Positions 4,801-58,489 of a stretch of 64,000 nt of DNA are shown in pieces. Location: contig AP031356.1 of NCBI GenBank assembly GCA_037833965.1, forward strand, positions 6,222,501 to 6,286,500, in the 5' to 3' direction. A model generated the notes under the pieces. That model saw nothing but the letters and a program-made list of their open reading frames with translations. It was not told where the DNA came from and ran no database searches. The stretch comes from Marchantia polymorpha subsp. ruderalis. Its lineage: Eukaryota > Streptophyta > Marchantiopsida > Marchantiales > Marchantiaceae. A program made the position numbers and the translations under genes. The number at the start of each line of letters is the position of its first letter. Position 1 is the stretch's first letter.

Positions 4801-4995
4801 GCTCGAGCATCTCGCTCTGAGGTACGAGAGGGCAAGCCTCGGGTAGTCCAATAGCTGCGGTCGGTCGCCACTCGAGCTAGCGCCTGTAGAAAGACGAAGA
4901 CGAAGAAGAGAAAGAAGTCTCACGACGAGGGAGAGAAGCTCAGCTGCGTGCCTCACTCGCCCCTTTCTCACCTCGCGAGGTCGAGCTTGGGCACA

Positions 4996-7991
4996 ATGAG
5001 TCAAAATGCGCATGCTGCCGTGCTTAGTCGAGGTTCAGGTGCAGGGGGAGCGATTGGGTTAGGTCACAGTGTTAGTAATCCCCCGGGGAGTAGCAGCAAC
5101 ATGAATCTGAGCTCTGCGTCCTCCGTGTCGTGGAGTCTTGTGAACAATGGCGCTCTGACATCTGGAGCTTCCGGAAACCAGAACATTTCGGCCTCCGCCA
5201 GCCATCAGCAGCAGCAGCAGGATGCCAAGGCTGCTGCTTCTCCGCAGAACAGCAATCAGAGCGGCTCCACGCTGAAGGAGCACGACCTCCTAGGCTTATC
5301 GGAGGTCTCGTCCTCGACCAGCCGAGGAAGCCCCGTCACCCAGGACAGTCTGCAGGACGAGTGCAATGATTTCGAGGAGTTGAATCTGAAATTGGGTCCT
5401 CCAGCAGTCCGCAAGAACTCGTACCCAAGAACTCAAGCCTCGGAGCCGCAGCCGCAGCAAGCTCCGGCAGTGCTCGAAAGTGGAAACTCCCACGCAGGCT
5501 CGGAGGTGAGCCAGCAAGCCACGGAGCAGGGGACGGCCTTCGCGGAGAAGAGCCCCTCGAGCGCAGAACAGAACGCCGCAGCCAACGAGCAGCAGCAGCA
5601 GCAGCAGGCCGATCGAGGCCTGGCCAGCTATGGCGTGCGCGGGGGTGGCGACATGTCCCAAGCGGGGATGGCCGATGCCGCCTCGGGCAACCAGGGCTGC
5701 CGACCCTCCATCGACAGCGAGGCCCTTATGAAATGGCACGCCGAGCAAGTCGGCGATCGCAAGACGTCGAACGAGTCTCTCCGACTCGGAATCTCTCTGC
5801 ACTCGCAGCAGCGCGGGCCGGCGCAGGATGGAGTCAGCGAGAAGAAGCCATTTCTCAGCTCCGTCGACCCCAAACAGCAACAGCAGCAGCAGCAACCACA
5901 GCAAGACGATCCATGTTGGCAGGCAGACCGCAATTTCCAAGACGACGTCTCGAACATGGACAACAACATCATCAGCAACAAGCAAGAACGCCCCTCCGTG
6001 GTCCAGGAGCAGCAGCAACAACAACAACAGCAGCAGGTCGCCAAGCAACAACAGCAGCAGCAGCAGCACCTCGAGAGGCAGAAGCAGCAGCAGCAGCACG
6101 AGGCGTATCAGATGACGGAGAAGAGACCGCTCATCGAGAGGAAGTGCCTGCCGGCGCTGCAGCAGCCGGAGCAGCAGCAGAGATTTCAGAGCGTGCCCGA
6201 GCGGAGCCCACGGCTGCAGCAGCAGCAGCAGCAGCAGCAGGAGCCCAACGGGGGCAACAGATTGTGGTCGAGCCAGATGAAGTACCGCGAGTGCATGGTG
6301 TCGTCGACGGCCTCGGACTTCCAGGCGCAGCAGGATCTCGAGAGCAGGGCCGGCTACGCGGTCGCGGCGCAGGGCTTCGCCGCGCAGCAGCGCAACGTGT
6401 ACGCCGCTGCCCCCTCCAACAAGCTCGGGGCTGTGGCCGGCGCCAAGCGCAACTTCGACTCCATCACCGGCTCCGACGCCCGCAGCGCCAACGGCTCCGA
6501 CGCGCGCAGCTTGCCCCTGCCCCTGCCCCTGTCCGGCGGAGGCCCCATGAGCTCCAGCAACAGCCCCTCGTCCGAGGCCGAGGCCAAAGCCCTGTGCCAG
6601 CAGCAGATGAAGGCGCAGAGCGGCCTGCCCATGTACCCCTGGGGGCCTAAGGCCGCTATCCCCAGCCAATGGCACATCGGCCTCGAGCAATCCGGTGGCT
6701 CCTTCGGCCCCTTCCCCTCTCAGAGACCCGGCCGTGCCCCGATGAGCAAGCCCCCGTCCGAGGCTGGCGTCGACGCCAAGGTCTGGGACGGCCAAGCCAA
6801 GAGCCACCAGGAAATCGTCTCGACCGCCTCGCAGCAGCAGCAGCAGCAGCAGCAGAAGATGTCCGCCCCTGCCGAAACCAAGCAGCAATCGTCGAACGAG
6901 GCCGCCCCGTCGCCGGCTGCCGATGTCGCCGTCTCGTCTGCCCCCAGGTGAGGAAATTTTCTCCCGGCTGCTCTCGTTCTCTGTGGCCCGGCTTCAGGCA
7001 GATTTGTGCGATTGCCATGGTCGTCGTCGTGTGACGGGGCTGACTTGATTGTTCGTTTTGTGCGAATGCAGAGCTGCCGCAGCCCCTCCTGCCGTAGGTT
7101 GGCCTCCCATTCGATCGTTCCGGAAGAACTTGGGCGTCACGCCGCGACAAGTGCCTCCCGAGACCCCTCCTCGACAGACCGCCCCACAACAACCAGCCGT
7201 GTCCACACCATCGGTGGCTGGCCAGTCAAACTCCTGGTTTGTGAAGGTTCACATGGATGGTGTCCCAATCGGGCGCAAGGTCGACCTGAGGACCAACAGC
7301 TCTTACGAGAAGCTCTCGCAAATGCTGGATGAGATGTTTCGGACTTTTGTCAATGGTGAGCCTCAGTCTAAGCCTCACCTTCGTTCTTTCGTTCTTGTCC
7401 ACTGCATCTTGGGCGTCGTGCGTTGATGTCTCTCAGATTTGGCATTCCAGCGCGTGCTTATTGTTAACGAATGCGTGTGTCGTGTTCTCAGGGCAAAATG
7501 GATCGAACAGAATAACCCTCGCCTCCGATATTAAGCGCAATTTCCTCCAAGGACCAGACTACGTCCTGACGTACGAAGATCAAGATGGAGATCTCATGCT
7601 CGTCGGAGATGTGCCTTGGACGTGAGTCATCTGATCTCTTCGTGATTTTAGAGTTCGTCGTGGAAATCGGATGCTTCTCTTTTTTTGCTTCGACGAAGTG
7701 AAGAGAAATGTCTCTTTGCCTCCTCTATCGATATATTCACTTCTGACGGGAGCTACGTTCATCTTGCAGGATGTTCATTGACACCGTGAAGAGATTGCGG
7801 ATAATGAAGGGATCTGAAGCTATTGGTCTCGGTAAGTTGCGATTTGGAGAACGAATTTGGCTGAAATGGAGTCGATTTGTATCGTTGGCCTCGTCGCCTG
7901 CTCTTCAGAAATTTGACCATTCGTGTGCCACAACTGTGCAGGGACCAGAGCGGCCGAGAAAGCAAACAAGACGACTCAACCGAACGTGTGA
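4996..7991 (+). CDS. IAA: Aux/IAA auxin co-repressor, long Gln-rich form
   Basis: This is the Aux/IAA repressor of nuclear auxin signalling. It holds ARF factors inactive, recruits TOPLESS, and is degraded through TIR1/AFB when auxin is present. The coding exons are 4996-6947, 7072-7355, 7492-7621, 7770-7831 and 7942-7991, all with GT-AG borders and consistent phase, giving 825 residues. Visible parts are the EAR motif LNLKLGPP (from residue 129), a Gln-rich low-complexity linker (about 190-620), the degron VGWPPIR (659-665) and a C-terminal PB1 domain (about 704-805) ending in the [12 protein letters not shown] region. Angiosperm Aux/IAAs are usually 150-350 residues, so the linker is exceptional; liverworts are known for one long Aux/IAA. 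I chose ATG 4996 (MSQNAHA) because the frame upstream has no other ATG. The first exon carries everything N-terminal of the degron. Confidence 0.97.
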
Positions 7992-49690: not shown

Positions 49691-50347
49691 TTTGATCCGT
49701 TAAGTCTAGTTTCTAAAGCAAATTTCTTCGGTTGGCAAATTGGTCTAATTCGTTGTTAAGAGATCTCCTCCCATATATGTATCTCATGTTTGGAATCTCT
49801 TCTATATCTCCAACATTAATCAAGAATGCCAGATCAAAATCACACCAAGCAAATCCGATGCGCTTAATGTTACTACTTTGAGAGACTTCAAAAGTGCGAG
49901 AACTTCGATTCAACTGCTGCAGAATCTATCAGAAGGAATATATATAGATGGAATCTAAAAATGTGAAAAAGATATTTCAGGGCGTACATGAAGAGGCTCA
50001 ACACAGAAACAGTAAGAATTAAATGACAACCGTAATTTCTACTGATGCTGGCTGTAGTGACAAGACAACCAGATCCACAACTGATACGCGAGGCTAGTCG
50101 TGATCCTTCTGGGTCGTAAAAAGTCATGCGAATAAACGTGAGCAGGCTTCAGGCAGAACAACCACAGACCTGATCAACGTGAAACACTTGGTGAAAACTA
50201 TAAACAGGACGATCGTGAATCGCGATAATCGAAACTGATTCTGTACATTGAATGATGCATCCTGAATAACCTGCAGGTATCACTCTCACTGTGTGATCTT
50301 CACATGATAGTGAGTAAAATTGGAGACTTCAAGTCTCTGCCGCACAT
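49691..50347. other. Downstream flank of KNL2
   Basis: G+C recovers towards the KNL2 gene. A 66-codon minus-strand frame at 49713-49913 is not recognisable. The KNL2 3' UTR is expected here. Confidence 0.4.
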
Positions 50348-53300
50348 CTAAACTAGAAGATAACTAAACTTCACGCTTGAATTCTTTCTTTTTCTGTACT
50401 CTGGAGCCATCTATGTCCTAGCAAGTTCTGCAGCCTTCTGTAACTTTCTCTGCATGGTTCTTGCTTCCTTATCTGTAGGTGGTTTGAAATTGTAGCAACC
50501 TGCGGAGAGCAACCGTGGCAAAAAATAGAGATGAGTTTCACGGCAGAGACTGAAAACAAAAGTGGTATGTAAACAACAGTAATATCCTACAACCCGTCAG
50601 CACCTACGCATGATTATTACAGAATTCGATAAACATCAATGCAACCTTATGCAGCAACAATCTGATAAGAGAAATCAATAAGCAACGCCTATATTTACGG
50701 AGGTGAGATGCAAACCTGTGCCCGATTCCCCTTCTGCCCCCTCAAAACCTTCTGCAATCGCAATGATGCTTCCATCCTGCAAATTGATTATTGATTTTAG
50801 CTACTTAACATGAACAATCTCATGAGTTTATTAAATATGGAAAAATAGAAAGAACATGGGCTTCTCCACAGGTTCAACATGATTCATTCCAGAAAAAAAA
50901 GGGAAACTTATTAGACTCAACCTTCTGGTACTTTTCACCAAGCACCCAATCCTTGTTTGGAGACCTATTAACCTATTAAGCTAATCACGCAGGACATTAT
51001 GTGAATTGGGTGTCAAGGAACAGCCATCTCTTACCATGTCATATTTTATTGACTGATTACGCCAAGTTGCCAAGCGAGGAACAAGAACTCTTCCTGAATA
51101 GATAGACCATGATCAGACGTGGACAAGGAGCTCAACTGCATGCCTCAGGAACTCTAAGCTTTCAGACTTGGCACTTTGGTTAGATAATCAATCACTTCAA
51201 AATTGCTTCCTCCATTCAAAAAGTTCTCCTTGCACTGACTGACTGTCGGGATGAAACAGGAGGGAAAAAGCCACAAGAACATCACAATATTATTCCACTC
51301 ACTCACGATGAGTACGTACCATGTCGTGATTTCTTCAAGCCAAAAGCTTCCGGCACTTTGGTCTTATCAACAACTCTCGGCGCGGGGGGAGGAGGTGGAA
51401 CAATCTGTGCAAAATATCAAAGATCATAAAGATCACAATTGTTTCATCTAGAATTCTTGCCTAGACAGAATTCTCGGGCGTGGAATCTAAACATTTGACC
51501 GCAGAACTCGATCCTTCACATGCGGGGCAATCCAATTTCAGCCTGCACTCTGTAAACTACGAAGCACAATTCACTTACAGAGGCACTGAATTTGTTCTTT
51601 CTCCTTTGAGGTTGGCTTTTTTGTATGACTCGATTGAGGACTTTCGGTGAAGCTCGTCGACTCCCCGAAAATGACCTCTCTGCAGTATTTTTCAAGCGCT
51701 TCGTCGACTTAGCCGCCTTATCAGCATCTTCGAGACCTTGGTTAAGCCCACCATCTGCCGCGTCTCCTTGGCCTTCGCCAGAAGTCTGCAAATCAGTCTC
51801 TCTGTCGTGGTCTTTCCTCCTCATTCTGTAGTTTCTCCTGCTCGAACTGCGCTGGTGCTTCTGACTGATAGGAGCTGGAATCTCTCTAGGTACCTGCAGA
51901 CAGTGATCTGTTCCTCCTTCGATATGGGTTTCTCCACAAGCAGAGGTACCAAGCGAGTCTTTGTGCAATTTACTCTTCAGCTCTTCGGGACGAGAACCTC
52001 CACTATGATGATTCATACCGGTGTCTTTCTCTACAAACCCGACTCTCTTGGTGCTCTTTTTTCTCCTGCCCTTATAATATTTTCTAGACTTCCTGCTCCC
52101 CTTGTTGTTACCAGGTGTGACGACTTGTTTATTTTCCTTGCACCCGTTCTCTTCATCTGTTTCTAGTTTCTGATCTGACTTCATTGCATGGTTCGACTCT
52201 GTACCTGCTTCATTCCGACAAGCTACAACTGGCACCCTAAACTCTTTAACGTCCTTGTGAAAGTACGTTACGTCGGCGCCCCCCTTGGGTTCCCTATTTG
52301 ACTTCAAAACATGGATACTTTCCTTGCCTCCTTCATCTCCTACAACTAGAACTTCGCTGCTCTCTTTGCCTGATTGGCTCCGAGAAGAGCTTTCAGCAAC
52401 ACTTCTTCGTCTACTTCTCCTCAAACTCACAAAAGAAGTCATCTGTGAGTTTGACGAGAAGACTTCGGTAGCAAGCAGACCGTCGTCCCTCGGCAACCCG
52501 GGATCACTATCGACAGAGTGTATGCTTGGTCTGCCAAGAGCAGCGCCTACGCTTTTCTTTCGTTTTTTCCGAGTTGTGCTTTCATCAACAGCCAATTCCT
52601 TCGCTGAAACAATTACCTCCTCCTGGCATGGCTCTACGGCTGTGTCAACAGATTCCCGATCTATATCATTCAACAAAATCTCCGACACCGGGGCATTAGT
52701 ACGGCTCTGACTAGGAAGAACTGAAGGGCCTGCATGGCTGAGTATATTGCACATGAGAATTGTTTCCTCAGTCGGGCCAGGTGTTTCCGTAGAATTCCTC
52801 GACCGCTTCTTGCTTTCTTGTAACGGGGTGCATGGTATAGAATCCTGCATCAGGCCAGCCTCTGTTCCAACTACAATTGGTTGACCTGAATCGCTTCCAT
52901 TCGCGTCATTTCCTATCGCAGCTGTTGCAGGCAACCTGATCTCTAAGGACGAAGCATGAGTTTCACACAACATCTTGCTGGGTTTCTCTTCCCCTTCTTC
53001 TGATACCGGCCCTTGAAACGGCCTCTTAGTCGTAAAATCACTACTGTCTTCTGATAACTCGGCACATCCTGCTGCAGGCTCATTTCCTCTATTAGGAAAC
53101 TCAATTGAGCTCACTTTGATGTTCAAGTCTGCCTTGCTTTCTCCATCCTGACTGGCCCCCGTTGTGACATCCAGATCAATGCCCGTGCAACCACAAGATG
53201 CACAGGTTAGCTTCAAGTAGCTGACACCAGGACAATTGCAATCCGTATCCACCGCTCCTACTACAGCTACGTGAACTGTGCCTTCTTGTGTAACATTCGC

Positions 53301-55650
53301 TTCGTCACACAACTTAAGCCCTGCTTCATACTCCTGATCTCTGGAATTTCCATCACCGAGAAATTCTCCCCAATCAATGTTAGGCTGGGCTTCTTCATTA
53401 GGAGTTCTTTCTGAGACATCGAGATCGACGGCAACGGCACCTTCAACACTCACTTCGTCCTTCGGAGTGGGAGAGCTGACAACATCTTCTAAGCCATCTC
53501 CTATCTCATCACCTTCCACAAGAACCACTTGAGTAGCACGTCTCTCGCTGAGCCGAGATGGCCTTGGATCGTGACTAGAGACTTGGTTTCGTGTATTTAT
53601 TGCATCGTAACATGAGTCGCTACCATTTCTGGTTTTGTTGTGATCTCCCAAACGTACAGAATGCTCTTCGCCACCTTCCGGAAGAACTTCTTGAGTAACC
53701 GCCCTTTCAACTAACCGAGATGGCATCGGGTCGTGACTAGCAGAGTGATTTCCTGTATTTATTGCGCCGTAACACGAGTTTCTATCATTTCTAGCTCTGT
53801 CGAGGCCCTCTTGAGTATTAACAGACTGGGGGGCTGAAGTAGCGTCAGATTCAACTCCACCTTGCAAATTGTTGCTTGAGGATAGTCTACGTAGTGCTAT
53901 CATCCGCGCTTCATCAGGAGCAATAAACAAAGATGAAGACAATATAATACGTACTGGATCTCCTTCCAAAGGTGCCGTATTCAGGAGAACCTCCCTCCGA
54001 TAGTTCCTTGGGTCCTGTGCCTGCCCGGTTGCATTGCTGGGAACGGCAGAGGATGAAGGCAAGTCCGTCTTATCATCACTCAAAGAGCCCATGCCGAAAT
54101 TTGAAATCATGTAGGACCAGGCGGAAGGAAAGCCGATCATGAAACACTGAACGAGCTGCAAACCAAAGACGACAACATCCGAAACGCGTGACTTCATAAA
54201 TGAGTTGTCAGTGGTTCAAGGTGGAAACGCAAAGTTGTGGACCGAGAGCAGAATATTAGAAAAGGGTTTATAGGACAACAGATTATGGACGGAAAATGCC
54301 GTAACAAAGTCGAGAAAGAACGAAGACTACTTCATGATAGGTAAGAAACCTTACCGCCTCGGGAAATCCGTTCGCAACAGATTTCGATACATTTATCATG
54401 CCCATAAGGCCCACCTCCAGCCCATGGCTGGTTTGAAGCCTCCACCTCTCGAGACGCTGTACGATAAGCCCGGATTCGAAGTAATCACTTTCTGACATCC
54501 TGGACAGGATAAAAAGAATCAAGACGCAAGATTACTCCGTAGCCATCGATCCAAAAGTCCAGCCAATCACCCAAATGAACTTTTGTAATATGGATGATAA
54601 CTAAGATATACAGAACCAGCCTTTGGCTGAGCAACAAAAGCCAGTGCTGTGTGCTTTCCTCATCGAGATTAACGGTGAGACAATTTACCCAGCACTCTTG
54701 TATCCACCAATAACTACTTGCGGTACAGCAGAACAGGATGCAGAGCCGTTGCTACTTGAGGGTCTTTTTAAGAACCATCCGTACAAGATCACCTGCGTGA
54801 AATTCGCTTCAATCAGGATCTCTCTGAAAGCTATCGAGCTGCAGAGCTGTGAATTGAAAGGACGTCATCAAGAGCGACACTCTGCTGGCTGGTGCATTAC
54901 CTGCTTCACGGACGCTTTCGTAGCGGCTAGAGCCCTGTGCATTGACTCAATTCTTGATAAGTCGGGTGAGCCTTTCCTCGACACAGAAGACGGCTTCGAC
55001 ATAAACGCATTCGCTGTGGCTCTATACGGTAAATCATCGGACAATGAAAAACAAGGAGTTCCACCAAGCGCCCGTATGCGATCATCGAAGTCATCTCCTC
55101 CGTCGTTTCTTCCTAAAACACTTCCACTCGGGTGACAGCATCCGCAACCCTCTTCCGCGTGCGAAGGTCCGGTTCCAGCTTGAGTATCTGGTACAGAGGC
55201 TCCTCTGCGATAGCGCACGTTTTCCTCTGAAACTTGGGCTTCACTGTCTTCACGGAGATCACGTCCTTGGCAGTGACCACAATCGCATGAAGACTGAGTT
55301 GCAGTTCTCCTATGACAAGACGTTTGAGCAAACTTCGCCGCTCGCCGGGCACTTTCAGCGTGCTCGTCATGCACGGAAAACCTTTCATGGAAGTGGCAAG
55401 AAGACCTACAATTGAAACTCGAGTGAGACCCATGCCTGCCATTTGGGAGATGGAATGGAGTTGCCACAGAATTGGCCGTTACGCCGGCATTATTTCGGGA
55501 AAACGTAGCCTCACAACACGGCTCTGACCTGCCCAACGTTCCAGAATCTCTACGAGAATGAAGGCCTCCATGCATTGCCATCAAGGTTGCGCGTTGTTTA
55601 CAGCTTCCTTCCCTCCTGCCAAGAGCATGACTTCGTTGGATGTTATCCAT
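50348..55650 (-). CDS. KNL2: KNL2/M18BP1-type centromere protein (SANTA and CENPC-k)
   Basis: KNL2 (M18BP1 in animals) marks centromeres and is needed to load the centromeric histone CENH3. Eight minus-strand exons splice in phase: 55650-54901, 54846-54689, 54499-54355, 54155-51579, 51404-51320, 51093-51035, 50776-50716 and 50499-50348, giving 1328 residues. The SANTA domain (about 269-364) is split over exons 2-4: VILYGWFLKR, VVIGGY, then the VANGFPEA/LVQCFMIGFPSAW junction. A CENPC-k motif (about 1231-1250) reads FGLKKSRHGRVLVPRLATW and is split between exons 5 and 6. The 859-codon exon 4 is acidic, Ser-rich and disordered, with basic NLS-like stretches and an internal repeat. The ATG at 55650 follows an in-frame TAG six bases upstream; the first 250 residues (Cys/His/Ser-rich) match nothing I know and are the least certain part. 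The domain architecture is that of the CENPC-k-bearing KNL2 type. Confidence 0.9.
53502..53777 (-). repeat. Internal protein repeat in KNL2, period 54 residues
   Basis: Two copies of a roughly 37-residue block lie in the large exon, starting SCYGAINTGN (codons from 53777) and SCYDAINTRN (from 53615). I count 25 identical positions out of 37, including the shared SHDPxPSRLxER core. The offset is exactly 162 nt, so the duplication kept the frame. No known motif is recognised. Confidence 0.9.
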
Positions 55651-57029
55651 GCTCTAAATCCCCACTACGAATATCCTACCAGGTAATCCTTCCTAGCGTG
55701 CTCTGTATCTGTTATCCTCCCAAGACAAACAACCTTCTCTTTGTACATGGCGGCATTATCCTTCAGAATGACAAGTAGCTCGAAGCAGCACCTAACCAAA
55801 ACCGCCTTTGCAGATGGCAAAGTTCAGTTGTAATTCGAGGCCCTACAAGCTACGGACATCAGAACACCCGCGAGAAGTCAAAATGAGTCCAATTGTGGTA
55901 ATCTCATGGCCGATATTATCATGACAGTAGAATCGGTTACAGCCTAAATACGTTCGGAGAAATTGAAGTCCATTATATGCAGCTCAAAACTCGCACGAGC
56001 AAAACGATCCGCGGCAACCTTCGTCATATTTCCACCCTATTCAATCACCGCGAGACCTAACAGAAAACACGAAAACGTAGAAGTTCCCGATACAGAGAAT
56101 GAATAAAAGCTGGAGCCGAAACAACCAAATAAAGAAAAGAAACCGACCGCACTACATCTAAGACATCACCAAGTGAGAAAGACATGAAGCGCGTTGGCGA
56201 AGACTTACATAGACAAGGAAATCGAGTCCGACGCGCTAAATCTATATGCAATCCAACTCAAGAGCAGCAAGAAACCACAATGGAAGCTCATCAAACAGCG
56301 CCAAAAGAAACCCAAGCCAGGGGAGCGGCAAGCACCTTAACTGGACGTCAATCACAACCTAACGGCGAGAATCGAAACCACGAAGCGAGGACTTCGGCGC
56401 GAGCAACAAACTGCAACAATTGCACCAATGCTCTCGCATTCATCAAGAACAGCCAAGAGCGCGGTGGAGGGAGAGATGCCCTCACCCGCAGGAACCATTC
56501 AAGCTTCAAAACAGATCCAGCGCCAAAACGAGGCAACACCCTCGCTGCCAGTTTCCACCTGTCGAGGTCTTGACCTGTCAGCGTTACCGGCAACGGAGGG
56601 TAAATAGACAGGAGCGTTCGGGCTTCGTCGGTGATAACCGGTCACCCGGTTAATCTATGTGAAGGAACCGGTGAGCTCGGGGGCGTGAGGTCCTAGAAAG
56701 ATCATGACCCTCGCACGTGTGATGCTAAATATAATGCTGCTCGCGGCATTAGAATTGGAAGAAAAGTGGAGAGTGTAGACGATATCATTTACCTCTTCAC
56801 GGTTCACGTATTGTAATTTATGTAGGGCATACAGTATTTGTCATCACGATCGAAGCCTAGAGATCTGGTTTCTTTTCTGCCCCGATTAATGGTTATTCCC
56901 TTGGCACCATGTCAATACCTTTTGATTTTCTGTAAACATTATACACTTCTAAATATGATCGGAACCTCACAACACCATTGCAAATATGTTCAGGTTACTT
57001 CCTCTCAACTACTGTGTTAATGCTTAATC
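55651..57029 (-). promoter_or_regulatory. Upstream region of KNL2
   Basis: This region precedes the KNL2 start and includes a GC-richer block at about 56340-56680 that could be a non-coding first exon or the promoter core. Short frames on both strands (up to 129 codons) have no recognisable domain. No other gene is seen between KNL2 and the following AT-rich desert. Confidence 0.4.
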
Positions 57030-57352
57030 CAAAGAATATTGACTGTAATACAGAATATTGATGATGATTTTATAACGAATTTCATAAGTGGTAATGAAAT
57101 ATAAAATTCATTAAAAATATTGATGGTGTTTCATAGAATCATTCAACTTGCTTAATACGAACTACAATGCATAATTCATGTTCAAATCTTACATTTAAAC
57201 ATTTCTAAAGTAATTTCATCAATATAATTTAAAATTAGTTCCAGAAAATAAAATAATTGTAATTCAAACTTTCAAATTATATATATATGTTTAGAACCTT
57301 TACATGTTTACAAGATATCATAGCTTCCACTTATGGAGCAAATTAATAAATG

Positions 57353-57391
<39 letters not shown>

Positions 57392-58489
57392 ATAATCATA
57401 CACACTCAATTTCATCTTTGATCTTAAATTTCATAATATTGAAGGAAACCAAACTTCTTTAATCCTTAAGATTCATACTTTAAAAAAGTATGAATCTTAA
57501 GATGTCACTATGTTTAAGTTTGTAACTTTTCTTCCAGTCCTCAAAAAAATATTGAGCATGCTTCTCTTTGAATGTTTTGATGACAGGTTTCAAGAACTCA
57601 AAAGAATCTAAAAAATAATTTTAAAATCAAAATTGAATAAAGAAATGTATAATTTCAGCTTGAACATTAAATTTTTTAACATATAGGATGATGGTATCTA
57701 AATTAATAGTGAAAAGCGGATATTTTTTTATTGTAAATCTTACTATAAAATTAATTTTTTTTTATAAAAATATATTGTATTTAGATTTTCTTGTGAATTA
57801 AATTCATACATAAAATTCAAACTTCTAATAACGTGAAGATCAAAATTTTCTCTATAAAAAATCATGATTAGAAATTTTACACATATACGAACAAATCAAT
57901 TTACATGTTATTGTAACTATTTCAAATTGTATCATAAAAGAAAAAATTTATTCTATAATTTGGAAACAAAGTTCACTGACATGTTAAAACTAGTCATTAA
58001 AATAATTGTGATGGAAAAAAAATTATTAAAAGAAAATTAATACAAATTCTTTAACATATAGCAAACATGAAACTTTAGATAATACATAGATTATTGAGGA
58101 TTGGAGACAGTATATTTCACTAAGAATAGAATTATATAAAAAATTGTTATATCAAAATTAAATTATTTATAACATCATGATTTGATAAATTTGGTTTAAT
58201 TTTAAATTTCATGATATTTTTAACATGGAAAAAAAACTTATTCAAAGATGATATAGAAATTTTGAAGATGTATGCATATTATTGTTGGCCTTTCGTTTAT
58301 AAATATATTTCCTCCAAGGACAAAAATATAAGATTTTATCACACTATGCATTGCACTTATTGTTTATCAATTCAAACTGATAATTTCATTGATTCAATAT
58401 TAATTCAAAATTGATTTTGATGCAAACTAGACTTTGAAGTCATAAATATGTCTGAAACATCACATGGATGCTAGTTTCTTAGTTATGGT
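57030..58489. other. AT-rich desert with simple repeats
   Basis: This is AT-rich DNA with no gene. It includes an AT dinucleotide run that passes into AC units at 57354-57391 and a perfect foldback at 57465-57501. Confidence 0.6.
57465..57501 (+). repeat. Perfect foldback, 17 bp stem and 3 nt loop
   Basis: CTTAAGATTCATACTTT (57465-57481) is followed by AAA and then its exact reverse complement (57485-57501). It is an isolated palindrome in AT-rich DNA, perhaps a replication or repair product. Confidence 0.9.

Follow-up and report, generated by a model that had tools for sequence, protein, structure and literature searches.

The window analyzed here, a 64,000-nucleotide stretch of the Marchantia polymorpha subsp. 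ruderalis genome, carries a KNL2 locus on its minus strand. The locus comprises eight coding exons running from 55650 to 50411, with a product of 1,307 residues. All seven introns are GT-AG, the phases are continuous, and there are no internal stops. Exon borders were set by eye, followed by a check of their phase. The exons are as follows, with coordinates given in the window.

54901..55650, minus strand: exon A, presumed to be the first coding exon, with 250 codons and its ATG at 55650; no known domain
54689..54846, minus strand: exon B, first part of the SANTA domain (VILYGW...VVIGGYKSAG); an alternative phased acceptor would make it 54792-54689
54355..54499, minus strand: exon C, middle of SANTA; holds the internal ATG 54498 of a short frame
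51579..54155, minus strand: exon D, final part of SANTA (LVQCFMIGFPSAW) followed by a long central region; nothing found in Pfam at E<=1 when scanned alone
51320..51404, minus strand: exon E, beginning of a C-terminal conserved block
51035..51093, minus strand: exon F, core of a CENPC-k-like motif (GRVLVPRLATWRNQSIKYDM)
50716..50776, minus strand: exon G, last part of the CENPC-k-like block (DGSIIAI...)
50411..50499, minus strand: exon H, C-terminal end of the protein (CYNFKPPTDKEARTMQRKLQKAAELART), closed by a TAG stop

Judging from the sequence, we put at about 0.8 the probability that this is a complete liverwort gene of the KNL2/M18BP1 type, with eight coding exons and approximately 1,307 residues translated from 55650. 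The anatomy of the gene and its SANTA homology are both demonstrated. In order, the predicted protein would comprise an N-terminal extension of ~250-268 residues, the SANTA domain to which exons B, C, and D contribute, a central region of considerable length, and the C-terminal CENPC-k-like motif. Exon D also contains an imperfect internal duplication at 53510-53800, consisting of two 129-nt copies with 74% identity at a spacing of 162.

Elsewhere in the window, an exon encoding an AUX/IAA domain, as befits a land plant, lies at 7049-7420 on the plus strand (E 2.3e-27), preceded by a long glutamine-rich open frame at 4855-6951 on the same strand. The two probably form one gene at 4855-7423 (plus strand). 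Rfam gave no match in 50000-57500.

Reconstruction of the SANTA domain

An initial annotation placed the start of KNL2 in exons upstream of the obvious MSESDYF frame, and this reading is borne out by phased GT-AG exons and a longer SANTA match. The frame beginning with MSESDYF was said to be truncated, and the protein from ATG 54498 indeed matches the Pfam SANTA profile (PF09133) only at positions 33-90, with 46.1 bits. We ran the profile scan that had been suggested, taking in five proteins. The B+C+D join scored 54.6 bits (E 1.6e-14; cut-off 21) and covered positions 1-90 of 92, and the first 449 residues, including exon A, scored 50.8 bits over positions 2-90. The strong acceptor described before the MSESDYF ATG is present: TTTTTATCCTGTCCAG precedes G|ATG, and exon C begins at 54499. 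Read without splicing, the frame upstream of ATG 54498 meets a stop after 11 codons. The proposed join of exons B and C at 54689 is phased, has the donor GG|gtaaat after 54689, and restores both VILYGW and VVIGGY.

As controls for this join, we collected every GT or GC donor in 54540-55299 that was phased to exon C and had at least 25 open codons, giving 52 donors including the proposed one. Nine of the 51 alternatives were scanned. They scored 46.8-48.9 bits versus 53.7 bits for the proposed donor (positions 1-90), and their matches began at profile position 31-33 in eight cases and at position 14 in one. The gain from the B-C join is thus modest in bits, yet specific.

The restored domain also carries the SANTA motifs VxLxDW and GFxxxxxxxFxxGFPxxW, in the form published in PMC9210943. 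VILYGW differs from the first solely by Gly in place of Asp. The second is matched exactly by GFPEALVQCFMIGFPSAW, a sequence that crosses the C/D junction. A PDB search with the SANTA region returned 9r6h_A (Mis18-binding protein 1) at E 1.3e-6, a match confined to the second part of the domain. W467 of M18BP1 has been equated with W150 of Arabidopsis beta-KNL2 in PMC13294675. W467 would be the Trp of GFPxxW, given that a Lys follows it both there and in 9r6h_A.

The first coding exon and its borders

The 250-codon open exon claimed at 54901-55650 contains exactly 250 open codons, is phased, and has the donor CAG|gtaatg after 54901. An in-frame TAG at 55656-55654 lies two codons before its ATG, whose context, tagagcATGG, has A at -3 and G at +4. 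Among 3,000 dinucleotide shuffles of exon A, the given frame was fully open in none, while two had at least one sense frame open throughout; the longest open run had its 95th percentile at 142 codons. These figures are somewhat generous because exon A was picked for being open. The period-3 information of exon A (0.028) is close to that of exon D (0.0293), compared with 0.0127 for the 750 bases upstream. The observed values were reached by 0 of 2,000 mononucleotide shuffles for exon A, 0 of 2,000 for exon D, and 70 of 2,000 for the upstream bases. The periodicity of exon A may be due in part to its absence of stops.

Codon models gave a mixed picture. With models trained on exon D, the exon A frame was the best of six, at scores near zero (0.011, -0.003, 0.011). 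With a model built from other long frames it was the last of six, and 2,962 of 3,000 shuffles scored as high; the exon D frame was likewise not ranked first by this model. Models built from kinase and RRM exons did not favor the exon A frame either, and 4,372 of 5,000 shuffles reached its position-specific score. The synonymous version of the kinase/RRM model has little power (the correct exon D frame was best in 3 of 25 windows). The position-specific version recovered the correct exon D frame in 17 of 25 windows, and its failure on exon A is therefore mild evidence against coding.

Homology searches were negative for exon A: no relative in PDB at E<=10, no further copy genome-wide at E<=1, and no Pfam match at E<=10 in the first 449 residues, where SANTA was the sole match. 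A single-sequence fold gave no confident structure (pLDDT 33.9). Length, phase, start context, and periodicity support exon A, and we conclude that it is probably coding. In the 600 bases upstream of 55650 (55650-56250, minus strand) there are 11 ATGs, of which 10 open frames of 1-27 codons and one opens a frame of 42 codons; each of these frames closes ahead of 55650. A short or a spliced leader is therefore probable, unless translation starts elsewhere.

Where does exon B begin? The initial annotation joined exon A to exon B at 54901/54846. This junction is phased and its acceptor, TTCAATTCACAG, is present. It is not unique, as the acceptor before 54792, AATTTCACGCAG, has the same phase. Use of exon A with an exon B that begins at 54792 would leave 18 fewer residues before SANTA (KASVKQ-VILYGW), and we give it only slightly less than an even chance. 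It would lengthen the A-B intron from 54 to 108 nt, the six remaining introns being 174-258 nt each, and a branch-like CTGAT motif is visible by eye upstream of this acceptor. The pyrimidine tract speaks for 54846 instead, with 12 of 18 positions versus 9 of 18 before 54792.

A different first coding exon, which would run from ATG 55748 to a donor after 55680 (MYKEKVVCLGRITDTEHARKDYL) and skip exon A, is rather improbable. Its frame is open, its GT is in phase 0 for exon B, its ATG stands in the context gccgcc, and the short N-terminus that it predicts would suit the N-terminal SANTA described for KNL2 homologues in PMC11879092. However, the donor CTG|gtagga appears weak by eye, and skipping exon A leaves its 250-codon openness and periodicity without explanation. 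Least credible by far is a protein that starts at 54498 behind a 5'UTR intron and holds only the second part of SANTA: its ATG directly follows an acceptor and its 46.1 bits still exceed the Pfam cut-off, but it discards a specific, phased first part of the domain that the nine tested alternative joins do not mimic. In our main reading the gene would be spliced as drawn and translated from 55650, with either of the two acceptors opening exon B.

The C-terminal block and a shortened paralogue

The gene continues past exon C to the CENPC-k-like motif and the stop at 50411; exons D-H, which lie outside the initial annotation, were traced in this analysis. The block KKSRHGRVLVPRLATWRNQSIKYDMDGSIIAI appears similar to the CENPC-k motif, as does GRVLVPRLATWRNQSIKYDMDGSIIAI, which spans exons E-G. 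In the last 126 residues, no Pfam model scored above its cut-off at E<=10. Herpesvir_UL11 appeared below the cut-off both here (E 0.027) and in the paralogue described next (E 0.015), and we judged it a chance match. The weak PDB matches of the C-terminus, the best of them a bromodomain at E 0.0073, were likewise judged to be chance because their alignments fall mostly outside the motif core.

A genome search with the C-terminal 125 residues (E<=10) returned 10 matches. Five lie in the KNL2 gene. Four cluster on the minus strand at C7:7379042-7379737, and one is at 7377915-7377974 on the plus strand. The cluster marks a KNL2 C-terminal paralogue on the same chromosome, ~1.1 Mb away.

L012:9021-10000 and L013:1-228, equal to C7:7379021 to ~7380228, minus strand: paralogue, open exons matching E-H

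The cluster reads as four exons with the phases of E-H, GT-AG borders, and a terminal stop, the acceptor of the E-like exon having been chosen so as to keep phase. If started at the first in-frame ATG, the product would have ~180 residues. Of the 97 residues aligned with KNL2 exons E-H, 72 are identical. The NG86 estimates are dN 0.154 and dS 0.866, giving a dN/dS of ~0.18 (bootstrap 95% 0.08-0.35; none of 500 replicates reaching 0.5). The CENPC-k-like block is under purifying selection as compared between KNL2 and the paralogue, and, given this interval, both copies seem constrained. A weaker similarity extends into the last part of exon D, where 35 of 80 residues agree (dN 0.50, dS 1.44).

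No SANTA was found in the 30 kb surrounding the paralogue other than a 12-residue piece with a stop (E 16). A search of the genome with exons C and D at E<=10 found no second SANTA elsewhere, although a diverged copy could escape such a search. The paralogue had no PDB match at E<=1. The isolated plus-strand match belongs to an inverted fragment of exons E and F at L012:7690-7971 that by eye appears decayed, the donor after its F-like piece having seemingly been lost.

Family-level searches of the genome were also performed. The SANTA family search found no match, the KNL2 gene itself included; exons were searched singly, so this result is not evidence of absence. No CENP-C_C match was found in the genome. 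Yippee-Mis18 matched twice. By eye these two resemble Yippee-like proteins, and they provide no evidence for Mis18.

Discussion

In plants, KNL2 is required for CENH3 loading. What would the protein described here contribute? From what is known of the family, we infer that it would bind existing centromeric nucleosomes through its CENPC-k part and assist in the loading of new CENH3, while SANTA would offer a surface for interactions.

The closest counterpart is plant alpha-KNL2 as described in PMC9210943, which likewise has a SANTA domain containing both motifs, here with Gly for the Asp of VxLxDW; its CENPC-k may have an equivalent in the C-terminal CENPC-k-like block of our gene. The resemblance extends to the lack of any further Pfam domain above cut-off in the pieces scanned. 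There are also differences. SANTA starts here at about residue 251-269, in contrast to the N-terminal SANTA of the KNL2 homologues described in PMC11879092. Moreover, the 1,307 residues make the protein longer than Arabidopsis alpha-KNL2, whose CENPC-k is placed at 538-572 in the same article.

In its layout the protein is also like vertebrate M18BP1/KNL2, where many residues precede SANTA; in our protein the GFPxxW Trp stands at residue 364. However, the SANT/Myb domain of vertebrate M18BP1 was not found by Pfam in exon D (E<=1) or in residues 1-449 (E<=10), nor above cut-off in the last 126 residues (E<=10). The vertebrate N-terminal region binds Mis18 (PMC13294675). The N-terminal region here is without a PDB match and so gives no sign of a Mis18-binding region of the vertebrate type. 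According to that source, no plant Mis18 alpha or beta has been identified, so a role of the extension with Mis18 is not implied.

The shortened paralogue is a more unusual observation than the upstream start of KNL2, which is ordinary gene anatomy and probably already present in public annotation. beta-KNL2 and delta-KNL2 have SANTA without CENPC-k. The paralogue is likewise a one-half KNL2 duplicate, but it retains the opposite half, a CENPC-k-like block with no SANTA detected. We tentatively suggest, at somewhat less than even odds, that KNL2 is split here into a long gene with SANTA, CENPC-k, and a new N-terminal extension of ~250 residues and a separate, selectively maintained gene with the CENPC-k-like part only, the reciprocal of beta-KNL2. 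Zuo et al. (2022; PMC9210943) report one KNL2 copy in bryophytes, based on three sampled species that possibly do not include Marchantia. Our literature search found no description of a comparable split in other plants and no publication combining Marchantia and KNL2, and the word liverwort was absent among the matches listed. The phrase "lacking the SANTA" in PMC11879092, where it occurs, refers to a construct.

Why does the start of this gene matter? A construct or mutant built on the 54498 start would miss the first part of SANTA, and a correct KNL2 model is relevant to studies of how CENH3 is loaded in an early-diverging land plant. The N-terminal extension and the paralogue merit more study. 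The extension poses a question for plants, where no Mis18 alpha or beta has been identified (PMC13294675). If real, the paralogue lacking SANTA would stand beside beta-KNL2 as its natural separation-of-function counterpart.
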